Shown in pieces: positions 3,960-24,480 of a stretch of 25,000 nucleotides of DNA. Position numbers and translations under genes: made by a program. Position 1 is the first letter of the stretch. Each line of letters begins with the position of its first letter. Below the pieces are notes generated by a model. It was not told the origin of the DNA, did no database searches, and saw only the letters and a program-made list of their open reading frames with translations. The DNA is from a virus, in IMG/VR virus record IMGVR_UViG_3300025853_000605, positions 1-25,000 of that record. One strand, written 5' to 3'.

Positions 3960-6922
3960 TGGGCGGGTTTAACTTAAACATTCCTTTAAGCTTTAATGGC
4001 ATTACTATTACGCCACAGCAGATTCAAAATGCTGTAGCTGCACAGAACGCACAGCCGGCGCAAACGCTTACGGAAGCTGTAGCTGCTATGCCAGCACAAG
4101 CGCCTGCTGCTACTCCGGCGCAAGATGTCGTTCCGGCGCAAAATGTTACTCCAGCAACTGTAGCCGCGCCGGCGCCTGTTACAACTACTAGTCCAGAAGT
4201 GGGCAAAGCAGGTGGCGTTGTGTCTGCAGGCTCTATGGGCCTTCCTGGGCTTTCTGATCTTGAAGTAGCTACGTCGCTTGGTTTAGAGTACACTGGCGAC
4301 CGCGACCAAGATCAAATGGTTCAAGACGCAGTAGAACAAGCACGCGCTAGTGAGTTTTTGTTTTCAGAATCAGCATTATCTGATGAAGAGCTTGCGCAAC
4401 GTACGCAACAGTTTGAAGATACTATTGCGCAGCTTCAAACTGACAAAGCTATGCAAGAGCAGTGGTTTGGAGAGCGTGACACTCGTAAGTTTGACTTAAG
4501 CCCTGCCGATATTCTTAAGGTAGCGGCTTCGTTTGCTATTCCATATGCTGCTCCGCTTATTACTGGCGGCGGAATGCTAAGCACTATGCTTACTCAAGCA
4601 GCTCTTGGCGGCGGCCTTGCAGCAGCAACCGGTGAAGACCCAATTAAAGGCGCATTAAGCAGTGCGTTTTTAACTAACCCTGCGCAAGCGTCGGCTGGGA
4701 CTAACCTTGGCAAGCTGGCAAAACAAACTGCTGAAGTTTTTGGCAACAGTAAAAACGAACCGGCTCCTGACGCACAGCCTGCGTCTGTGGTTGAACAAGT
4801 ATTTGCTGACGTGCTTCCGCGCCCTGACTATACGACTGAGCAGCCTACGCCAGCCCCTGCGCCTTCTTTGCCGGTAGATATTACCGAGCCTCCTTTGCTT
4901 GAGCCGGATATTCCTACGCCTGTTGTAACGCCTCCTGTAAAGCCTACGCCTACACCTGTTGATAGCGGCGGTGGTGGCGGAGCGCAATCAGGAGGTGCAC
5001 AGCAGCCAGCAGCGCCTACGCAACCGGAAGATATTACGCAAGACACCACAGCACCTGAGGGCTTTGAGCCAGTGCTGCCGCCAAGCTATTCAGAAACTAT
5101 TAATAATGTTCTTGAGCAGCTTGATGTGTTTCGCCAAGAAGGGCAAAGCAGCACGCAAGCAGTGCAAGATGCTGTAGATTCTGTTGCAAGCTCTATGGAC
5201 ATGACGCGTGAAGAGTTGCTTGGTGAGCTGGGCACTACGCAAGAGAACATCCTGGCTGACATTGCGGTGCGTGACGAAACGCTTCGTGGTGAAATGGAAG
5301 CAGGACAAGCCGCTGCGGCTGAAGAGCGTCAGGCTATTATAGATCAAGTAGCGGCTAACGAAGAAGCTGGTATGACTCGTGACGACGCGCTTCAAGAAGC
5401 CATTAACGCCGTTGCTGCGGCTAACAATACGACCCGTGAAGACCTTCTTGGACAGCTAGGCGCTACGGAAGAAACGCTTGCAGGTCAGATTGAAACGCTG
5501 AGTGAAACGGCAGCTACGGAACGTCAAGCAATTATTGATGAAGTGCGTGCTAACGAAGCGGCAGGCATGGAGCGCACTGATGCGCTTCAAGAAGCCATTG
5601 ACGCCGTTGCTGCGGCTAACAATACGACCCGTGAAGACCTACTAGCAGAAATGGGCACCTCTCAAGAAGCAATCCTTACGGAAGTTAACACGCAGCTTGA
5701 AGGCATTACGGGTTCTATTGAAGGCTTGCAGGGTGGCGTTACGCGAAATGAAGAGTTGATTGGTGCTGTTAACGACCGTCTTGATCAATACGTAGCAGAA
5801 GGTCAAACGCGAGCGGATGCGCTAGAGCAAGCCGTTGCGGACGTTGCGGCCCAAACTGATCAGTCCTTTATGGACGTGCTTGGCTACCTTGACGACCTGC
5901 AAGAAAACGTTAACGTAGATGTTGAGAACGTACGCGTTGCTGGCGAAGAGGGTCGTCAAGCAATCCTTGATCAAGTGGTAGCTAACGAAGCGGCTGGCAT
6001 GGAGCGTGACGCAGCGCTAGACGAAGCTATTGCTGGAGTAGCAGATAGCTTAGGCGTTGCTGTTGAAGACCTGCTGTCTCAAATGGGCACAAACCGTAGC
6101 GAGCTTGAAGGCGCTATTGGCACGCTAGAGCAGCAAGTAGCAGACGTACAGACTAACGTGCTGGAGCAAGTAGCAGCCAACGAGCAGGCCGGTATGGACC
6201 GTGACGCTGCGCTAGAGACTGCCGTTAACAAAGTGTCTGAACAGCTTGGCGTAACCCGTGAAGGTTTGCTAGAGCAGCTAGGTGCTACGGAAGAGACTTT
6301 AAGCGGGCGCATTGGCGAGCTACAGACCAGCGTTGAGCAGCAAGTAGCAGACGCTCAGGCTAGCGTGCTGGAGCAAGTAGCTGCCAATGAAGAAGCCGGA
6401 ATGGCTCGCGATGAGGCATTAGACGAAGCTATTGCAACTGTTGCTGACAACCTTGATGTAGCCGTTGAAGACTTGTTGTCTCAAATGGGTACGAATCGTA
6501 GCGAACTTGAAACGTTAGTTACGGAAGGGCAACAAGTTCTTGAAGAGCAGATTACGCAGTCTCAGGAAACGGTGCTAGAAGAAGTAAGGGCCAATGAGGC
6601 TGCAGGACAGAGCCGTGACGAAGCGTTAAGCAACGCCCTAGAGGGAATAGCGGCTGATCTTGGCGTGGCTGTGAGCGACATTCTAAGCCAAGTAAACGCT
6701 AATGAAGCGGCAGGCATGGCGCGTGATCAAGCTATTGGTGAAGCCATTGGCGGTATGGGTCAAGAGCTGGGCTCTGGGCTTATGTCTGTGGCTGCTGAAG
6801 TTTCAATGTTTCAGCCTAAATGGAACGAGTTGTTTCAGTACACTACGCTTAAGCCGTATCAAAAGAAAGCTATTACGCCGTTTGCGCAATACATTACGCA
6901 AGCTAAAGGAATGTTATCATGA
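3959..6922 (+). CDS. Large repetitive coiled-coil virion protein, 987 aa
   Basis: A very large protein of unrecognised family. Residues 1-80 are Ala/Pro/Gln-rich. Residues ~180-240 contain a hydrophobic Ala/Gly stretch (VAASFAIPYAAPLITGGG...). Residues ~265-375 are a Pro/Thr/Gly-rich linker with a G5 run. Residues ~385-930 are acidic helical repeats with the signature A-N-E-x-A-G-M-x-R-D-x-A-L, seen at about 466, 531, 675, 740, 809, 878 and 914, with degenerate copies near 394 and 614; the spacing is mostly 65-69 residues. The last ~40 residues are different and aromatic (FQPKWNELFQYTTLKPYQKK). It sits directly before the tail tubular genes and overlaps the next start by ATGA. A structural role (long fibre shaft, or ejection/tape-like protein with a membrane-active segment) is inferred from size, composition and position. 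Confidence 0.85.
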   Translation: MGGFNLNIPLSFNGITITPQQIQNAVAAQNAQPAQTLTEAVAAMPAQAPAATPAQDVVPAQNVTPATVAAPAPVTTTSPEVGKAGGVVSAGSMGLPGLSDLEVATSLGLEYTGDRDQDQMVQDAVEQARASEFLFSESALSDEELAQRTQQFEDTIAQLQTDKAMQEQWFGERDTRKFDLSPADILKVAASFAIPYAAPLITGGGMLSTMLTQAALGGGLAAATGEDPIKGALSSAFLTNPAQASAGTNLGKLAKQTAEVFGNSKNEPAPDAQPASVVEQVFADVLPRPDYTTEQPTPAPAPSLPVDITEPPLLEPDIPTPVVTPPVKPTPTPVDSGGGGGAQSGGAQQPAAPTQPEDITQDTTAPEGFEPVLPPSYSETINNVLEQLDVFRQEGQSSTQAVQDAVDSVASSMDMTREELLGELGTTQENILADIAVRDETLRGEMEAGQAAAAEERQAIIDQVAANEEAGMTRDDALQEAINAVAAANNTTREDLLGQLGATEETLAGQIETLSETAATERQAIIDEVRANEAAGMERTDALQEAIDAVAAANNTTREDLLAEMGTSQEAILTEVNTQLEGITGSIEGLQGGVTRNEELIGAVNDRLDQYVAEGQTRADALEQAVADVAAQTDQSFMDVLGYLDDLQENVNVDVENVRVAGEEGRQAILDQVVANEAAGMERDAALDEAIAGVADSLGVAVEDLLSQMGTNRSELEGAIGTLEQQVADVQTNVLEQVAANEQAGMDRDAALETAVNKVSEQLGVTREGLLEQLGATEETLSGRIGELQTSVEQQVADAQASVLEQVAANEEAGMARDEALDEAIATVADNLDVAVEDLLSQMGTNRSELETLVTEGQQVLEEQITQSQETVLEEVRANEAAGQSRDEALSNALEGIAADLGVAVSDILSQVNANEAAGMARDQAIGEAIGGMGQELGSGLMSVAAEVSMFQPKWNELFQYTTLKPYQKKAITPFAQYITQAKGMLS
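5138..6748 (+). repeat. Array of 65-69-residue coding repeats
   Basis: Within the 987-residue protein, a unit built around A-N-E-x-A-G-M-x-R-D-x-A-L-x-E-A-I and E-D-L-L-x-Q-x-G recurs about every 65 to 69 residues (195-207 bases). Two neighbouring copies are nearly identical at DNA level: 5387-5445 and 5582-5640 match over 59 bases with one difference, offset by exactly 195 bases. This points to recent tandem duplication, while the other copies have diverged. Confidence 0.85.
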
Positions 6923-7566
6923 CGTATTTGGAAGCAGTGAATCAAGTGCTGCAGCGCCTCCGTGAAGACACCGTAACGGACGTAACGGGTCTTGATGATC
7001 CCGTAGCGGAGATGGTTGTGTCGCTTGTTAACGATGCCAAGCAGCTTGTCGAAGATGCACACACATGGAATGCACTGCGCTCTGACTGGGCCATTGCGAC
7101 CACCGCTGGCGACAATCTGTACAGCTTGACAAATGCCGGAAATTATGGTAAAATAGAGTATATCGTTAAGGACGACGGAACGGAGCTTACGGAAGAAACG
7201 CTTTACAGCTTGCGCAAACGACAAGCTGCTTCGCCCGCCGATAACAAACCAAAATATTATGCTGTTAACGGTACTGACGCTAGCGGCGACATTCAGCTAC
7301 AACTATTCCCGCAGCCTGACGCCGTATACAACTACACCGTATATGGTTTTAAGCGTCAAGCAGAACTTAGCGACAAGGCTGACGTATTGCTTGTACCCGG
7401 TAAGCCTGTTGTGTACACGGCGCTAGCTATGGCAGCACGTGAGCGTGGCGAAGTAGGTGGTCAAACGGCAGCAGAGTTGTTTGCGCTGGCCGGTACGTAC
7501 CTTAGCGACGCCATTGCGTGGGACTCTTCGCTTAACGATCTTGACAATATCTGGATGACTGTGTAA
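6919..7566 (+). CDS. Tail tubular protein A (T7 gp11-like), 215 aa
   Basis: Probable head-to-tail adaptor ring subunit (gatekeeper) linking the portal to the nozzle. The start MTYLEAVNQVLQRLRE and the following D-D-P-V-A-E-M-V-V-S-L-V-N-D-A-K-Q-L-V-E-D helix, then W-N-A-L-R-S-D-W, are typical of podovirus TTPA proteins. The C-terminal half has the expected beta-rich stretch and helical end. T7 gp11 is 196 residues, so the length fits. The start overlaps the previous stop (ATGA), and the stop overlaps the next ATG (TAATG). Immediate linkage to a TTPB-like gene strengthens the call. Confidence 0.85.
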   Translation: MTYLEAVNQVLQRLREDTVTDVTGLDDPVAEMVVSLVNDAKQLVEDAHTWNALRSDWAIATTAGDNLYSLTNAGNYGKIEYIVKDDGTELTEETLYSLRKRQAASPADNKPKYYAVNGTDASGDIQLQLFPQPDAVYNYTVYGFKRQAELSDKADVLLVPGKPVVYTALAMAARERGEVGGQTAAELFALAGTYLSDAIAWDSSLNDLDNIWMTV

Positions 7567-9278
7567 TGGCGCAGCAACAACAGAACATTACGGTTAGCGC
7601 TCCGGGGTTCCAAGGGCTGAATACGGAAGACTCTCCGCTTCAGCAAGACCCTGGCTTTGCGCTTGTGGCCGACAATGCTGTTGTGGATAAGTTTGGTCGT
7701 ATTGGTTCGCGCAAGCCGTGGACGGAGTTTACCACTGCGGTTAACGTAACGTATAGCGCAGCGGTTGGCGTAGCGGACACGCAGATTAAGACGCACCGCC
7801 TAGGCAATGGCGACATCAACGGCGTTACGTACGTGCTAGCTACGGTTGGTGTGTATCAGTATAACGCCTCTGGCTCTTTGCTACAAGACGACTACTTTAT
7901 CTGCAAGCTTACCACTAGCTCTGGTCCCGTGTACGAGCTAGATGAGATTAGCTACCCAACGCTTATTGACGACAGCGCTTTGGCTGACGCTAAGATTGTT
8001 AGCTTTAACGACAAGCTATACGTTTTTAGCGCTGGCAATGAATGCCTTGAATACGACGGCAGCACTATTGTCAAGCTGTTTACGGGCACCAATGACGTAG
8101 ACTACATTAAGCCGCAAGACGACAGCGGCACCCTTGCCGCAGTTATTAACGGTGACGTAGCTACAGCCGCTTACGGGCGCTTGTGGGTTAGTGGTGTTGA
8201 CGGCGACTACCAAACGATTTACTACAGCGACCTCCTCATTGCTACGCAGTGGTACGACGGACGCGCTGTGCCCGCTGATGCGCAAAACACTGGCGGTATT
8301 CTTAACATTAACGAATACTGGCCGCGTGGCACTGATCGTATCGTAGGGATTGTAGCGCATAACAACGCTCTGTTTATTATGGGGCGTCAATCTATTCTGG
8401 TGTATAACAACGCTGCTAGCGGCGATCCAGCAGGCAATGACGGCATTGTACTGGCTGATACCATTAGTGGTATTGGCTGCGTAAACCGTGACGCCATTGC
8501 TAACATCGGCTCTGACGTTTTGTTTGTAGACGACTCCGGTGTGCGCTCTATTGGCCGCACCATCCAAGAAAAGTCTGCACCGCTTAATGATTTGACTTCT
8601 AACGTACGTCGTGACATTACGGACATCATTGCGCTTACGGCTGACAAGACCACCATTTCGCTGTCCTACTGGCCTGATGAAAACTTAACGGTTGTTAACT
8701 TTAGTAACGACTTGCAAGCCTTTGCGATTGAGATGCGAGCGCCTAGCGTAACGGGTGGTAACAAGGTAACGCGCTGGACCAATACGGTCTGGGAGCGCGC
8801 CATGTACTACGAGATTGACGGCGAGGCTCGCGTGTTGCTTGCAAGTAGTGCTAGCAACTACGGTTGTTTCCTATACGAAGACGGCTTGAACTACAATAAT
8901 CAACCGTTTGAGTTTAAGTACGAGTCTAATTCGTTTACGTTTGGTCAACCAGCTAACACTAAGTTTATTAAGCAGATTGACTTTACCGTTGTGTCTACGC
9001 TAACGGACGCTCAAGCGTATGCGGGTTGGGGTTATAGCGGGCGCCTTGATTATACGAAAGCTTTGACGATTGCAGCTCAAGCGCCTGCGCTATATAACGT
9101 AGCATACTTTAACCAAGACGACGAATACGGTCCCGGCCTTACGACTGTCCGCCGCTATCGTGTTAACGCTAAAGGGAGCGGTGAGTCTGTGATTATTGGA
9201 TTCCGTACTGAAGTAAACGGTAACACGTTTAGCCTTCAAGAGATTAACGTACAGACCCTTATTGGGAGGATTATCTAA
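7566..9278 (+). CDS. Tail tubular protein B / nozzle (T7 gp12-like), 570 aa
   Basis: Probable nozzle subunit of the short tail. The N-terminus (ITVSAPGFQGLNTEDSP, then an asparagine-rich turn with DNAVVDKFGRIGSRKPW) is the characteristic opening of podovirus nozzle proteins. The body is beta-rich with many Y/W/D residues and includes the N-N-A-L-F-I-M-G-R-Q-S-I-L-V-Y strand segment. T7 gp12 is 794 residues; shorter versions near 550-700 are common in marine podoviruses. Its start is coupled to TTPA (TAATG). The Shine-Dalgarno sequence for the next gene (GGGAGGA) lies inside its last codons. Confidence 0.85.
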   Translation: MAQQQQNITVSAPGFQGLNTEDSPLQQDPGFALVADNAVVDKFGRIGSRKPWTEFTTAVNVTYSAAVGVADTQIKTHRLGNGDINGVTYVLATVGVYQYNASGSLLQDDYFICKLTTSSGPVYELDEISYPTLIDDSALADAKIVSFNDKLYVFSAGNECLEYDGSTIVKLFTGTNDVDYIKPQDDSGTLAAVINGDVATAAYGRLWVSGVDGDYQTIYYSDLLIATQWYDGRAVPADAQNTGGILNINEYWPRGTDRIVGIVAHNNALFIMGRQSILVYNNAASGDPAGNDGIVLADTISGIGCVNRDAIANIGSDVLFVDDSGVRSIGRTIQEKSAPLNDLTSNVRRDITDIIALTADKTTISLSYWPDENLTVVNFSNDLQAFAIEMRAPSVTGGNKVTRWTNTVWERAMYYEIDGEARVLLASSASNYGCFLYEDGLNYNNQPFEFKYESNSFTFGQPANTKFIKQIDFTVVSTLTDAQAYAGWGYSGRLDYTKALTIAAQAPALYNVAYFNQDDEYGPGLTTVRRYRVNAKGSGESVIIGFRTEVNGNTFSLQEINVQTLIGRII

Positions 9279-14080: not shown

Positions 14081-14109
14081 CGCCCGCTACGCATGACGTG
14101 TAGCGGGCG
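14081..14109. terminator. Bidirectional intrinsic terminator between convergent modules
   Basis: A perfect 10-bp GC-rich stem (CGCCCGCTAC / GTAGCGGGCG) with a 9-nt loop lies between the stops of the convergent late and early modules. On the minus strand a TTTT follows shortly after the stem (the complement of TAAAAC at 14071-14076); on the plus strand the T-run is weak (CTTGCTTTCC). It is positioned to end both transcripts. Confidence 0.8.
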
Positions 14110-17687: not shown

Positions 17688-18187
17688 GCGGCTAATACAA
17701 AATTTCCGTGGTTTTTATGAAATCCAAAGTGCTGCTCAGCTTTCTTACGCACAGCTATGGCTTCATCAAGGTCTTCATAGTAGCCTAAAAAGATTTCGTT
17801 ACGATTAATTTTAATCCTAACGCGGTACTTTCCATTGTGTATATCAATACCGGGAATGCCTGTTTTGTTTGTTTTATAAAGACGCATGTTCCTTGAGTTT
17901 TCTAGTGAGCTAACAAGCCGTAAGTTTTTGATTCGGTTGTCTGCTCTATTGCCGTTAATGTGGTCGATGTACATATTTTTTGGGTCTTGTCCATATACCC
18001 ACATCCATATCAGGCGAGAAGTTTTATACAGTACCCCATCTATACGTGAGTTTCTGTAGCTAGCAGACAGCATGGGTTTTGCTTTTCTTGTTCCTGTTTT
18101 GGTTTTACGTACAAACGCCCCGGTGTCTTGGTTGTAATCGTACAGCTCACGGAGCAGCTCTTGTGAAGGTAACGGTCTGGTTTTCAT
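17684..18187 (-). CDS. HNH homing endonuclease with AP2 DNA-binding domain, 167 aa
   Basis: Free-standing homing-type nuclease. The N-terminal part contains YDYNQDTGAFVRKTKTG and RIDGVLYKTSRLIWMWVYG; the HNH core is YIDHINGNRADNRIKNLRLV (H76, N84, N88). An AP2-like domain follows at about 109-155 (TGIPGIDIHNGKYRVRIKIN ... FLGYYEDLDEAIAVRKKAE). Base composition is distinct: 30% GC at 17761-17820 and 42% at 17881-17940, against 57% in a sample of the neighbouring polymerase gene (18601-18660). It begins inside the polymerase stop (TGATG overlap) and lies immediately downstream of the polymerase gene, a classic location for such elements. It is likely a mobile passenger. Confidence 0.88.
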   Translation of the reverse strand: MKTRPLPSQELLRELYDYNQDTGAFVRKTKTGTRKAKPMLSASYRNSRIDGVLYKTSRLIWMWVYGQDPKNMYIDHINGNRADNRIKNLRLVSSLENSRNMRLYKTNKTGIPGIDIHNGKYRVRIKINRNEIFLGYYEDLDEAIAVRKKAEQHFGFHKNHGNFVLAA

Positions 18188-19827
18188 CAGTGTGTCTCAC
18201 TCCAGTTGTTTCCAATTTTGTATTCACCGTCCAGCGGACAGCGCAACTTTAGCTTACGTCCTGCCTCCCTTATCGCGTTACGGAACACTGCGCCTACTTG
18301 CTGCGCATACTCTTCAGGCACCTCTACCTGAAACTCGTCATGCACTTGGGCCACCAGCTTGTATGGGTAGCCGTAGCGCTTCAGCTTTTGCGTGGCAATT
18401 ACTAGCGCTTGCTTCATTACGATAGCGCCAGCAGATTGCAGCAAGGTGTTGAGTGCTGCATGTTCGCTGCGTATCAGCACACGGCGCCCGTCAAGCCCTG
18501 GAAGAGAGCCGCTAATGCCTTGCCTAGCCACCTTGTTAATCAGCCGTGAAAGGGCAGGCAGGCTGTCTAGGAAGCGTTGCTTGAGTTGTGCACCCTTGCG
18601 TGACGAGCCGCCTACAATGCTACCAATCTTGGCGTCACCGGCACCGTACAGGAACGCATAGATAAACGTCTTGGCTTGGGGCCTAGTGTCCAGCCCCGCT
18701 GCCTGCTGATTGTAGGTGTGGATGTCTCCGTTAAGGATCAGGTCCGTATATTTAGCATCGTCCATGTAGTGGGCTAACATGCGCAGCTCAAGGCCGCTAG
18801 CGTCAATGCCGACAAGCTTGCTGCCCTCAGGCGCAACGAAGCACTGGCGGTACAGAGAGTCGCTAGGTATCTGTGCCATGTTAGGTGAGCTGTGTGTCAT
18901 ACGGCCCGTCACGGCACCGCACGTGTTGACACGGCCATGGATACGCCCGCTGTCTTGCACAGCATCAAGCCAGGACTTGAGCATACCGTAGCGCTTCTGC
19001 AGCGTAAGATACTCAAGGACTAGTACGGCTTCCGGTACGTGTTCGTTCTGCTTGAGCGTAGTCTCGTCCACCTTGGGCTTACCGCTGGGCGTAGTGTCAC
19101 GCCACACGGCACCCTTCTGGGCCAGACGCTCCGCCACTTGCTGACGCGAAGCTACGTTGAACACAGTTACACGGTCCTTGAGTTGCTTACCAGTCTTCTC
19201 AGACCAGCGCTCCTCAATGATGGGCGGGAAGATAGCCTGCAGCTCTTCCTCAATCTCACGCATGCGCTGCTCATGCTCGCAGTACAGGTTGCATGCGGTG
19301 GGAAAGTCAAAGGCAAAGCCGTTGGCAATCTGCTGCACCGTAGCCTCAGCGACAGCATGCTCAAGGTCACGGCACTGCTGACTGAAGTCCTGCCGATCTA
19401 GCTCTGCGACGATGTGTTCATACACGTCCCAGTTAGCACGGCAGTCTTGCAGGCAGTAGCGGATCATGTCGTCCGTAAGGCCCTTGTCGAAGTCGGTAAC
19501 GTCGAAGTCTTGCTTCAGTTCTTTACCGGCCCGCAGCGCCCAAGCTTTCAGAGAGTGTCCGCCCTCAGCAGGGGGGTTTAGTAAGCGGCCCATGACGAGA
19601 GTGTCATGGACCTTTCCTTCCCATGCCCAGCCCCAGACGCGCTCTAGAACCGGAAGGTCAAAGGCCAGCAGGTTGTGGCCGATGATGGTGTCAACGCCGC
19701 GTAGAGCGTCCCGCAATGCGGATGACGTGGTGCAGGATACGGCTTCGTTCCGTTCTGGTAGGTATACGCCCGCCATCCAGATCGTGTCGTGCGCTAGGTT
19801 CGTTTCGATGTCCACTACTGCTTTCAT
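18187..19827 (-). CDS. Family A DNA polymerase with 3'-5' exonuclease, 546 aa
   Basis: Replicative DNA polymerase. Proofreading domain: DIET (D6, E8), HNLLAFD (D57), and YCLQD (Y124, D128). Polymerase domain: motif A GIDASGLELR (D342), motif B RPQAKTFIYAFLYGAG (R382, K386, Y390), motif C QVHDEF (H496, D497, E498). The residue equivalent to E. coli Pol I F762 is tyrosine (Y390), as in T7. At 546 residues it is shorter than T7 gp5 (704), and I see no room for the thioredoxin-binding insert. AGGAG lies eight bases before the ATG. Upstream are a strong promoter and a palindromic leader; downstream a homing endonuclease is coupled. No key residue is missing. Confidence 0.93.
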   Translation of the reverse strand: MKAVVDIETNLAHDTIWMAGVYLPERNEAVSCTTSSALRDALRGVDTIIGHNLLAFDLPVLERVWGWAWEGKVHDTLVMGRLLNPPAEGGHSLKAWALRAGKELKQDFDVTDFDKGLTDDMIRYCLQDCRANWDVYEHIVAELDRQDFSQQCRDLEHAVAEATVQQIANGFAFDFPTACNLYCEHEQRMREIEEELQAIFPPIIEERWSEKTGKQLKDRVTVFNVASRQQVAERLAQKGAVWRDTTPSGKPKVDETTLKQNEHVPEAVLVLEYLTLQKRYGMLKSWLDAVQDSGRIHGRVNTCGAVTGRMTHSSPNMAQIPSDSLYRQCFVAPEGSKLVGIDASGLELRMLAHYMDDAKYTDLILNGDIHTYNQQAAGLDTRPQAKTFIYAFLYGAGDAKIGSIVGGSSRKGAQLKQRFLDSLPALSRLINKVARQGISGSLPGLDGRRVLIRSEHAALNTLLQSAGAIVMKQALVIATQKLKRYGYPYKLVAQVHDEFQVEVPEEYAQQVGAVFRNAIREAGRKLKLRCPLDGEYKIGNNWSETH

Positions 19828-19900
19828 TCGGCTGTCTCCTTAGCCTACTTAGCTCTTCTTGTTCTTGCAATGCGATTACGTAGTCACCCATTCTACTCAT
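19691..19900 (-). CDS. Small ORF in polymerase leader, 69 aa, overlapping polymerase start
   Basis: From ATG 19900, preceded by a strong AAAGGAG, a frame reads MSRMGDYVIALQEQEELSRL... and continues for 136 bases into the polymerase gene in another frame. The first ~26 residues look like a genuine amphipathic helix. The remainder (HRNEPSARHDLDGGRIPTRT) looks like an out-of-frame reading of the exonuclease domain, so the protein may be real with a low-complexity tail, or the frame may act as a leader coupling ribosomes to the polymerase start. It is the first gene after the palindrome. No family is recognised. Confidence 0.5.
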   Translation of the reverse strand: MSRMGDYVIALQEQEELSRLRRQPNESSSGHRNEPSARHDLDGGRIPTRTERSRILHHVIRIAGRSTRR

Positions 19901-19920
19901 AGTGTACTCCTTTACGCTGG

Positions 19921-19990
19921 CGTTATGCTACGTTACGGCCTAACTAATAATGGTATTGCTGTATTAGGTTTGCCGTAACGCTACATAACG
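19921..19990. repeat. 70-bp imperfect palindrome in polymerase leader
   Basis: Two 29-base arms (19921-19949 and 19962-19990) around a 12-base centre match in about 23 of 29 positions when one is reverse-complemented. The outer parts pair perfectly in blocks (CGTTATG and CGTTACGGC with their complements). It lies in the largest gap of the leftward module. The promoter at 19996-20025 would start transcription at about 19988-19990, at the very edge of the palindrome, so the whole structure would be the 5' end of the polymerase mRNA. Confidence 0.75.
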
Positions 19991-19995
19991 ATATT

Positions 19996-20025
19996 ATTTT
20001 ATCATGCCAGCATGGTGTGTGTCAA
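19996..20025 (-). promoter_or_regulatory. Sigma70-like promoter for DNA polymerase unit
   Basis: Minus strand: -35 TTGACA (20025-20020, perfect), 18-base spacer, TGA extension, -10 TAAAAT (20001-19996). The RNR stop codon TGA is embedded in the -35. It precedes the palindrome, the small ORF and the polymerase gene. Confidence 0.78.
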
Positions 20026-21932
20026 GCACCAGAGCCAACAACTTCACAAACACCGCCAGTGCAGGCCAGCTCTTGGCTTCCGGTGGTGGTGTCGCCACGC
20101 TCAAAGGCAGGCAGAGCAGCCCAGTCAATCTCAGGCATGTGAGCAGACAGCTCCTTGTACTCCTGCTCCGTAAGCTCCTGATAGGGCGCCTGACGGTACG
20201 TGCCGTTGTCGTAGGGCAGCAGGGAGATACCAGACATGATGTCCCAGTTGTCCCAAATCCATTGACACACAGCGAAGAACTCGTCCTCCTTGTAGTACAC
20301 AGTGATGGACGGCTTGTGTTCGCACCAGTGTAGCTGATACTGTTTCCAGACTTCAAGCTGTCCGATAGCGCCAACATCGTTACGGAAGATGGAGGTCTTC
20401 GGTGCTTCAATCGGGAAGCTGAACACGGTGGTGGTGTCAGGCTTCATGACGCACGCCTCATACGGTACACCCTGAGCGCGCAGGAAGTCCGTCATCGGGT
20501 CTTTGTTATCCTGGCGCACCGTGCGTACGTAGTACCGTGAGTAGTTGGGGTGAATGCCTGACGCACACAGCGCAAGCTGGCTCACCGTACCGCTTGGCTT
20601 AACGCACGTGATGGCAGCAGCAGGGTTGATCTCAAGGCTCTCAGCCCACTGCTTGTTCACGTTGATGGCACGCTTACGCATTACGGTCAGCCACTCTTCA
20701 AGCTTCTTGTTACCCTTGCTGCCGTTGAGCACGGGGTGGTCCATGAGGCCCGTCAAGCTGACGCCAAGCAGCGCTTCCTCCTCGCAATTCTTCTTCCACA
20801 CAGAGCGGAGGTAGCGGAAGTTAGTGAGCGTAGCCTGCAGCGTACCGAAAGCCGTAGCGATCTCAACCTTATCAAGCAGTTGGTCAAGCGTATCGGTGGA
20901 GCGTACGATCACTTCACTCAGGTTGCAGAACTCCGCAGGGCGTAGCAGGATTTCACTGCACGGGTTACACCCAAAGGCTGCGGTGTTGTCCCGCCGTCCG
21001 TTACGCCCCGCAATGTTGCGTGCTGCTTCCCGCGAGAAGATACCGCGCTCACCTGAATAGCTTTCATACAACGCTTTCATCTCGCTCATGAAGAACGGGA
21101 AGTCAGGCTTCTCGTCGTACACTGCGCTGTTGTTAGCCAAGGCACGCTGGCCGTTACGCTCCCACCACTGCCCAGACTTGGCTGCCTGCATGCGGTCAGA
21201 CACAGGGCTTGACAGACTGATTAGGGCAGACCGGCGCACGCCGCCCACCACCACGATCTCAGCGATCTTACAGCAAATGTCATGGCACTCTAGGTCCGTG
21301 AGCTTCCTGCCCGCAGCGCCCTTGAACACGTCCACAAGGAAGCGGTGCAAGTCTTCCAGCGGCTCCGGCCCAGACGCCCTGCCACCAAAGGTCTTGAGCC
21401 GTGCGCCAGCGGGTCGTACCTGGGAGTAGTCAAGCTTGGGCACCTCGCCAGCGTAGAGCATGGCGATTAGCTGCCGCGTACTCTTAGCCCAGCCAATCTT
21501 GCTGTCCGCTACGACAATGGTGGTGTCCGTATCGGCAAACTCTTCGGCCACGACAGGCAGCTTCTTGACTTCCTCACGCTCTACGCTGAAGCCTACGCCC
21601 GTGCCGCAGAGCAAGATGTACATCAGCTCGTCAAAAGCTTTCGGGTCGTTGATCGCAAGGTAGGCGCAGTTGAAGCCAGCCACGTTGTCACGGTCCAGCG
21701 CAGGGCCAGCCGTCATGAGGGCGCGCATGCTGGGCACTACGTCAAGGTCATGGATAGCTTTCTTGAAGCGCTTGGCTTCGTTGCTGCTGACCATACCCTT
21801 GTCTTTCCAGTAGTTGACGTAGCGGTTGACCGTCTCGTCCCACGTCTCGCGGCGCTGCTCGTCATCCAGCCAGCGAGCGTAGCGACTAGCGTGGATGAAC
21901 GCGCTGTAGCTTGGGTTGCTTGTCGGAATCAT
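20022..21932 (-). CDS. nrdJ: Class II (adenosylcobalamin-dependent) ribonucleotide reductase, 636 aa
   Basis: Reduces ribonucleotides, probably triphosphates, to deoxyribonucleotides using a radical generated from adenosylcobalamin. Key residues align in spacing with the monomeric Lactobacillus-type enzyme: a first active-site cysteine in GFNCAYLA (C89), the radical cysteine and glutamate in NPCSE (C325, E327), the partner cysteine 11 residues later (C336), the PSGTVS loop (~446-451), and a C-terminal redox pair CTGGVC (C624, C629) five residues apart. No small subunit is encoded nearby, as expected. The ATG at 21932 has AGGAG upstream and overlaps the small coiled-coil gene. Activity would depend on cobalamin in the host. 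The stop lies inside the polymerase promoter. Confidence 0.92.
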   Translation of the reverse strand: MIPTSNPSYSAFIHASRYARWLDDEQRRETWDETVNRYVNYWKDKGMVSSNEAKRFKKAIHDLDVVPSMRALMTAGPALDRDNVAGFNCAYLAINDPKAFDELMYILLCGTGVGFSVEREEVKKLPVVAEEFADTDTTIVVADSKIGWAKSTRQLIAMLYAGEVPKLDYSQVRPAGARLKTFGGRASGPEPLEDLHRFLVDVFKGAAGRKLTDLECHDICCKIAEIVVVGGVRRSALISLSSPVSDRMQAAKSGQWWERNGQRALANNSAVYDEKPDFPFFMSEMKALYESYSGERGIFSREAARNIAGRNGRRDNTAAFGCNPCSEILLRPAEFCNLSEVIVRSTDTLDQLLDKVEIATAFGTLQATLTNFRYLRSVWKKNCEEEALLGVSLTGLMDHPVLNGSKGNKKLEEWLTVMRKRAINVNKQWAESLEINPAAAITCVKPSGTVSQLALCASGIHPNYSRYYVRTVRQDNKDPMTDFLRAQGVPYEACVMKPDTTTVFSFPIEAPKTSIFRNDVGAIGQLEVWKQYQLHWCEHKPSITVYYKEDEFFAVCQWIWDNWDIMSGISLLPYDNGTYRQAPYQELTEQEYKELSAHMPEIDWAALPAFERGDTTTGSQELACTGGVCEVVGSGA

Positions 21933-23916: not shown

Positions 23917-24098
23917 CGGTCAATCATCGACATCAAGAGGTTAGCCACTTTCTCTCCATACTCTTTAGTGATGTCGCGCATTGCAATGCTGGAGTCTGTC
24001 TCCGGGTTGGCTAGGTAGTGGTACAATTCCTCCAGCTCAGGCCGCGTAATGTCGGCGTAGTGGTTGGCGTTATTGCCATTCGTCGTAGTCGTGGTCAT
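23913..24098 (-). CDS. Small early protein, 61 aa
   Basis: A 61-residue protein with a Thr/Asn-rich head (MTTTTTNGNNANHYADI) and a helical acidic body (RPELEELYHYLANPETD, then TKEYGEKVANLLMSMIDR). No family is recognised. It starts within the acidic tail of the 136-residue gene (29-base overlap), with AGGAG about ten bases upstream. Its stop contributes to the -35 of the primase promoter. As part of the rightmost set of small leftward genes it may be an early host-takeover protein, by position only. Confidence 0.62.
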   Translation of the reverse strand: MTTTTTNGNNANHYADITRPELEELYHYLANPETDSSIAMRDITKEYGEKVANLLMSMIDR

Positions 24099-24480
24099 CG
24101 TCGATCAGCTCCTCGATTTCAGTTTCATCATAGTCTTTAAAGAAGTCACGCTCTGCACGGCTGCGCAGCGGCCCGTCACCGTGCATGTGTACGTCGTTAC
24201 CGTCCACCATAGAGTAGTCTCCAGAGGTAGCAGACAGCAGCGCAAAGCGTGCTGCGCGTGTGTCTTCCATCGTGTCCCAGCTAGTGGTGTCCATGACGGT
24301 TTCAAGCGTCAGCATGTTGCGCGTGACGCTGCGGTTAGCTTCACGCTCAATGTTATGCTGGCGGTACTGCTCAGGCGTAATGGTTTGCACCTTGCCGCCC
24401 GATGCCTGGAATGCTGCAACATCAGCAGCCAGCGCCTCACGCTCAGCGTCCTTATCCTTTCGCGTGGTGTGTAGTGCCAT
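24070..24480 (-). CDS. Acidic early protein, 136 aa
   Basis: The N-terminal part is basic and helical (MALHTTRKDKDAEREALAAD), then AAFQASGGKVQTITPEQY, a pattern I remember in many small phage proteins (helix followed by G-G-K-V/I and a proline). The C-terminus is extremely acidic (KDYDETEIEELIDDDHDYDEW). A strongly acidic tail on a small early phage protein can be a DNA mimic or a partner-binding segment, but neither is shown here. AGGAG lies six bases before the ATG. The gene overlaps both neighbours, and its start lies inside the tetrapeptide-repeat gene's end. Confidence 0.68.
   Translation of the reverse strand: MALHTTRKDKDAEREALAADVAAFQASGGKVQTITPEQYRQHNIEREANRSVTRNMLTLETVMDTTSWDTMEDTRAARFALLSATSGDYSMVDGNDVHMHGDGPLRSRAERDFFKDYDETEIEELIDDDHDYDEWQ

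Follow-up and report, generated by a model that had tools for sequence, protein, structure and literature searches.

Bacterial mRNAs such as those of ompA and papA carry stabilising stem-loops at their 5′ ends, and RNase III processing sites of the T7 type are long hairpins with an internal loop that lie between phage genes. Conversion of the mRNA 5′ end by RppH is impeded by a 5′ hairpin, and an appended hairpin can stabilise bla mRNA; some mRNAs do not respond to a 5′ hairpin (excerpts of PMC3997798). The present work deals with a 70-bp palindrome at positions 19921–19990 of a 25,000-base virus record (IMGVR_UViG_3300025853_000605; this whole stretch is referred to as the window, in comparisons as WIN), which lies between a gene for ribonucleotide reductase (RNR) and, on the same strand, a small open reading frame (ORF) followed by a DNA polymerase gene. 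The prediction that the palindrome encodes an RNA hairpin at the 5′ end of the small ORF/DNA polymerase mRNA, made already in a preliminary description of the window, is well supported by comparison with related contigs, because the spacing between promoter and stem is kept, the pairing survives sequence change and every one of the 20 close contigs has the element next to its promoter. As to function, we give a probability of about 0.45 to the reading that the 5′-terminal stem-loop locks the mRNA end and hinders 5′-end-dependent decay, and that it is thus a stabiliser and insulator of the replication operon.

The two arms of the inverted repeat (19921–19949 and 19962–19990) are 29 nt long each, are complementary at 23 of 29 positions (79%), as first described, and are separated by a 12-nt spacer. 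This is the top-scoring ungapped inverted repeat of the window, equalled or bettered in 1 of 200 dinucleotide shuffles of the whole window. RNA of the minus strand is predicted to fold with −29.9 kcal/mol (z = −6.33), none of 200 shuffles folding as low, and in a scan of both strands the palindrome had the lowest z of 4988 scanning windows (−8.35, 30 shuffles per window). Its raw folding energy is unexceptional: more than 20 other stretches of the window, mostly GC-richer, fold lower. The predicted fold (minus strand) consists of an outer helix of 19 positions (RNA nucleotides 1–19, 19972–19990, with nucleotides 52–70, 19921–19939), a 4×4 internal loop (AAAC, 19968–19971, opposite UUAG, 19940–19943), a 6-bp inner helix (CUAAUA, 19962–19967, with UAUUAG, 19944–19949) and a 12-nt apical loop (19950–19961). 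The outer helix holds one A·A mismatch flanked by two G-U pairs. No terminator-like site was called at the hairpin on either strand, and there is no U run after the stem. Rfam gave no match in the window at the gathering score, the best sub-threshold match reaching 22 bits versus a cut-off of 110; the sub-threshold matches (miRNA, preQ1-II and others) were rejected.

A sigma-70-type promoter, TTGACA-18-TAAAAT with an extended −10 TG and 11 of 12 consensus positions, was found on the minus strand at 19996–20025, where the preliminary description had placed it. The palindrome begins 5 nt past the −10 box. When the 7th base after this box is taken as +1, transcription would start at stem nucleotide 2, so the predicted +1 falls at the base of the stem (nucleotides 1–2), as had been proposed, and the stem would begin no more than about 2 nt from the mRNA 5′ end. 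The Shine-Dalgarno (SD) sequence of the small ORF (AAAGGAG, 19907–19913, minus strand) lies outside the stem, which ends at 19921. In a fold of the 130-nt leader its probability of being unpaired runs from 0.97 to 0.01 across its length; the 3′ half of the SD sequence may pair weakly with sequence not belonging to the hairpin.

Relatives came from a polymerase search, which yielded 80 loci, and a 15-mer scan, which yielded 55 stretches. The 20 stretches with both arms, each on a separate contig, form what we call the close group; the other 35 had single-arm 15-mer matches and were discarded as chance, the second arm and the promoter being missing. Together with the window the 20 contigs have 10 distinct hairpin sequences, here called variants. 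In every one of these public contigs the promoter and the hairpin are present at the homologous place and a relative of the small ORF follows downstream. All 10 variants retain the promoter hexamers (TTGACA; TAAAAT or TAAGAT) and the TG, start the stem 5 or 6 nt past the −10 box, and fold into a single stem-loop. Both sides of the internal loop are invariant, the inner helix has an A-U to C-G change in L002, and the apical loop varies in sequence and length. Identity of the hairpin to that of the window is 84.5–98.6%, versus 66.5–78.2% at the third codon positions of the polymerase gene (7 relatives). The central break of symmetry in the arms, to which attention had been drawn earlier, is real in the window but not conserved: the positions concerned (U-G, A·A and G-U in the RNA) are paired in 6 of the 10 variants. 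An alternative inner pairing, CCUA with UAGG, is conserved; dual conformations were nevertheless rejected, the alternative being 0.3–3.9 kcal/mol less stable than the first inner pairing in all 10 variants.

What follows the hairpin differs from contig to contig. The small ORF lies 81–83 nt from a fixed hairpin position in 9 contigs, 278 nt in 8, 343 nt in 2 and 1169 nt in 1. Extra genes stand between hairpin and polymerase in 11 of the 20 contigs, those inserted before the small ORF spanning about 200–1100 nt, and the hairpin remains at the promoter. The extra DNA of L003 encodes a 64-amino-acid HTH_39 protein (found by tblastn also in L008), that of L004 an 87-amino-acid protein without Pfam match, and that of L006 other ORFs. 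Since the hairpin lies at the predicted +1, leaves the SD sequence outside, is not followed by a U run and stays bound to the promoter despite a differing first gene, it would act on the 5′ end or on the departing RNA polymerase rather than on the translation start of one gene. A place for exchangeable genes right behind the unit of promoter and leader was also seen in a wider set of loci (L003, L004, L006, L011, L171, L255 and L261), where it holds genes for HTH_39 and HNH proteins and others.

That the palindrome works as RNA rather than as DNA is indicated by the kind of its variation. Across the 10 variants 93.2% of the pairing cells pair, versus 24–43% with one arm slid by 1–3 columns, a control biased by design towards the true register. 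Cells of the 25 pairs deviating from Watson-Crick pairing comprise 17 G-U, 1 A-C and 16 other; pair 13/59, for example, is U-A or U-G, and C-G in L255. In 10 of the 11 hairpins, that of L255 among them, folding is more favourable for the transcribed strand than for its complement, L012 being the exception. Both this asymmetry and the G-U bias point to RNA. A 5′-terminal stem-loop of equal stability was obtained in none of 1000 shuffles each for the leaders of WIN, L005 and L255.

A diverged homologue is that of L255/L275, with RNR 78% and polymerase 74% identical, where a promoter with TTGACT overlies the RNR stop and the hairpin comes next. The L255 hairpin was recovered at the homologous place by a covariance model of the 10 variants, with 21.3 bits (E = 0.012 in 370 kb from 34 sources). 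Aligned to this model, L255 keeps 17 of the 19 outer pairs; nine of its pairs differ from those of the window, of which 7 still pair, 6 via changes on both sides. The chance of at least 7 of 9 pairing at 6/16 is 0.017, a figure that is flattered because the alignment was fitted to the structure. The leader folds with z = −5.71, and its internal loop differs from AAAC/UUAG. Conservation above that of third codon positions and the L255 homologue together argue for selection on the pairing. The homologous hairpin has been traced only in the close group and in L255/L275.

According to the proposal, the promoter at 20025–19996 would give rise to an mRNA that starts with the 70-nt stem-loop and continues into the small ORF, the gene for DNA polymerase and those downstream; a cassette gene would precede them on this mRNA in many relatives. 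With the 5′ terminus held double-stranded, 5′-end-dependent decay by RppH and then RNase E would be hindered, and the ribosome-binding site downstream would stay clear of the stem. Protection of the 5′ end is the simplest fit among the functions considered, and of the three offered by the preliminary description (transcript protection, polymerase autoregulation and a replication-origin element) it probably fits best. Like the stabilisers of the ompA/papA type, the hairpin would lie at or within 1–2 nt of the 5′ end, and it has the ribosome-binding site downstream, outside the stem. Unlike these, it belongs to a phage replication operon, is longer (25 paired positions plus an internal loop) and has an invariant internal loop, and stabilisation is putative here. 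It appears to be a neat case of an already known type of element and not a new type. A phage polymerase leader hairpin of matching type was not found in literature listings and the beginnings of abstracts. As a natural 5′-terminal mRNA hairpin in a phage replication operon it is comparatively well supported, a diverged homologue retaining the fold. If the proposal is true, promoter and 5′ hairpin would be a portable expression module before exchangeable genes, and a compact part for probing 5′-end protection.

Several observations weigh against this reading. The hairpin, the promoter, their spacing, the conservation and the pairing through change are supported by sequence, whereas the exact +1, transcription in vivo and an effect on the life of the mRNA are predictions. 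The invariant AAAC/UUAG internal loop exceeds the needs of a plain cap. Compensatory changes, which the preliminary description had named as a check, were obtained in part: the six two-sided changes of L255 agree with an RNA structure, but within the close group only two pairs changed on both sides, which 53 of 500 column shuffles reach, and covariation there is by itself not significant. Counting wobbles by distinct states, with L255 included, gives 6 to 1 for the transcribed versus the other strand (one-sided p = 0.06). The leaders of nine further promoters (WIN, G001 and G002) fold in an ordinary way (z from −1.2 to 0.5), and therefore the hairpin is not a general device of the phage.

The wider relatives also count on this side. 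The inverted repeat is present throughout the close group and missing from some more distant relatives, most clearly from L258/L271 (RNR 71%, polymerase 65% identical), which have no intergenic gap, the RNR gene abutting another gene. L011 has a promoter-like sequence and at the predicted +1 an 11-bp hairpin of dissimilar sequence that lacks significance (140 of 1000 shuffles), L261 a dissimilar and weak one (19 of 1000 shuffles), L171 a long dissimilar leader hairpin that is not 5′-terminal (z = −3.12), and L156/L157 and L246 a short GC-rich UUCG hairpin without clear promoter.

Among the other explanations, it is conceivable, if doubtful, that host RNase III cuts the long interrupted stem, either splitting RNR read-through from the polymerase mRNA or exerting control as in RNase III-regulated leaders; RNase III cutting can stabilise or destabilise RNA (excerpt of PMC6993053). 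Outer helix of 19 positions, internal loop and inner helix do make up a long stem of about two turns, and the hairpin lies, like T7-type sites, between phage genes, here two on the same strand; it differs from these sites in its place at the predicted 5′ end of the transcript, a dedicated promoter just before it having the main transcript begin there. Moreover, the unrelated hairpin at the same place in L011 has only 11 bp, which is short for a typical RNase III site. That the palindrome is a DNA site beside +1 for a phage or host protein that represses or activates the promoter, with the winged helix-turn-helix product of the first gene of some members as a possible autoregulator, we regard as unlikely. 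The first genes of L003, L255 and L171 match HTH_39, a large part of both arms is invariant, and each arm has CGTTAYG repeats about one turn apart, all of which speaks for such an operator. On the other hand, the window and 9 of the 20 close contigs retain the palindrome without a cassette gene, the HTH genes lack tblastn matches in the rest of WIN and in the near-whole G002, L003 and L255 do not preserve the CGTTAYG pattern, and the presence of G-T rather than A-C mismatches and the better folding of the transcribed strand favour RNA. CGTTAYG as a genome-wide operator was also rejected: 24 matches were counted (6.3 expected), 20 of these not in the palindrome and just one pair of them close together (6972 and 6981), and the motif is lost in L003 and L255.

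An origin of replication or DNA cruciform, the third function offered originally, is suggested by a long palindrome adjoining replication genes and is most improbable: in the cumulative GC skew the peak lies near 14 kb, at the switch of gene orientation, with no turn around 20 kb, and the wobble pattern favours RNA. Autoregulation of the T4 or RB69 type had likewise been considered. T4 gp43 does have a hairpin operator in its leader, but the gp43 operators differ from the present hairpin in size and in reaching the ribosome-binding site, which the T4 operator overlaps (excerpt of PMC3014915). Common to the gene 43 operators of T4 and RB69 and to this hairpin is the position in the leader of a phage DNA polymerase mRNA; here the hairpin has 70 nt and is tied to the promoter, not to the polymerase gene. 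This type of control is disfavoured, as the stem leaves out the ribosome-binding site and the hairpin is separated from the polymerase gene where other genes intervene (11 of 20 contigs). The more general idea that the hairpin RNA serves autoregulation by binding a phage protein (polymerase, product of the small ORF or another) finds a basis in the AAAC/UUAG loop, invariant in all variants, and is improbable in view of the differing loop of L255 and of a hairpin that is not kept near the polymerase start. Less probable still is a cis-acting RNA that loads onto RNA polymerase leaving the promoter and prevents termination or pausing, as HK022 put does. Like putL, the hairpin has about 70 nt and comes right after a phage promoter that host RNA polymerase uses; putRNA has two stem-loops (excerpt of PMC9378689), whereas one is found here, and no Rfam match was above threshold. 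It is decidedly unlikely, though a little less so than either of the last two, that the hairpin represents an undescribed phage RNA family acting via the AAAC/UUAG loop on host RNA polymerase or on a phage replication protein, that is, a one-stem put-like antitermination or an autoregulatory element at a replication-operon promoter whose first gene is freely exchanged.

The small ORF (19691–19900, minus strand, start codon at 19900) encodes 69 amino acids without family match. The DNA polymerase (18187–19827, minus strand; 546 amino acids) matches phrog_17 of PHROGs (1.1e-139) and the RNR (20022–21932, minus strand) phrog_367; several phage relatives of the latter carry the annotation cobalamin-dependent, class II. 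Among the phage-isolate matches listed, the top polymerase is 45% and the top RNR 62% identical to that of the window, and none is close. The TGA stop of the RNR gene (20024–20022) lies within the −35 box of the promoter. The same arrangement, a TTGAC −35 box holding the TGA stop of the upstream gene, was seen at the three best minus-strand promoters (20025–20020, 23916–23911 and 17687–17682), and in L255 the TTGAC −35 box likewise overlaps the stop codon of the upstream gene. A rule that every phage promoter opens with a hairpin was rejected, the small hairpins at the primase and 17687 promoters being ordinary in z and that of the primase promoter not retained in G001 or G002.

With respect to the other loci, the gap is absent from L249, L253, L262 and L274, where polymerase is not downstream within the locus; in L154/L155 the RNR gene is not immediately upstream of the polymerase gene; and in the remaining 68 polymerase loci (L013–L080) the RNR gene is downstream or has no match in the locus. 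In L255 (7336–9643) the DNA polymerase is found as ORFs of 394 and 158 amino acids with an ORF (8619–8984) without Pfam match between them, as with an intron or intein.

Elsewhere in the window, a near-perfect extended promoter (TTGACA-17-TG.TAAAAT, 7126–7154, plus strand) lies inside the coding gene 6919–7566 and has counterparts in G001 and G002. For the ORF at 24070–24480 (minus strand) the SutA RNAP-binding domain of Pfam scored below threshold (1.8e-5; 24.5 bits, cut-off 29.3). A 12-bp GC-rich terminator-like hairpin is located between convergent genes (14081–14109), at the sign change of the GC skew. A comparison of the palindrome region with 50,697 phage records gave one match, short and chance-like; a 46-base match to a member of the Microviridae (MW202895.1, E = 3e-3) was taken as chance. 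In this Microviridae sequence (L359, 150–196) an AT-rich promoter-like stretch is followed by ACGTTAT repeats that resemble the 5′ arm.
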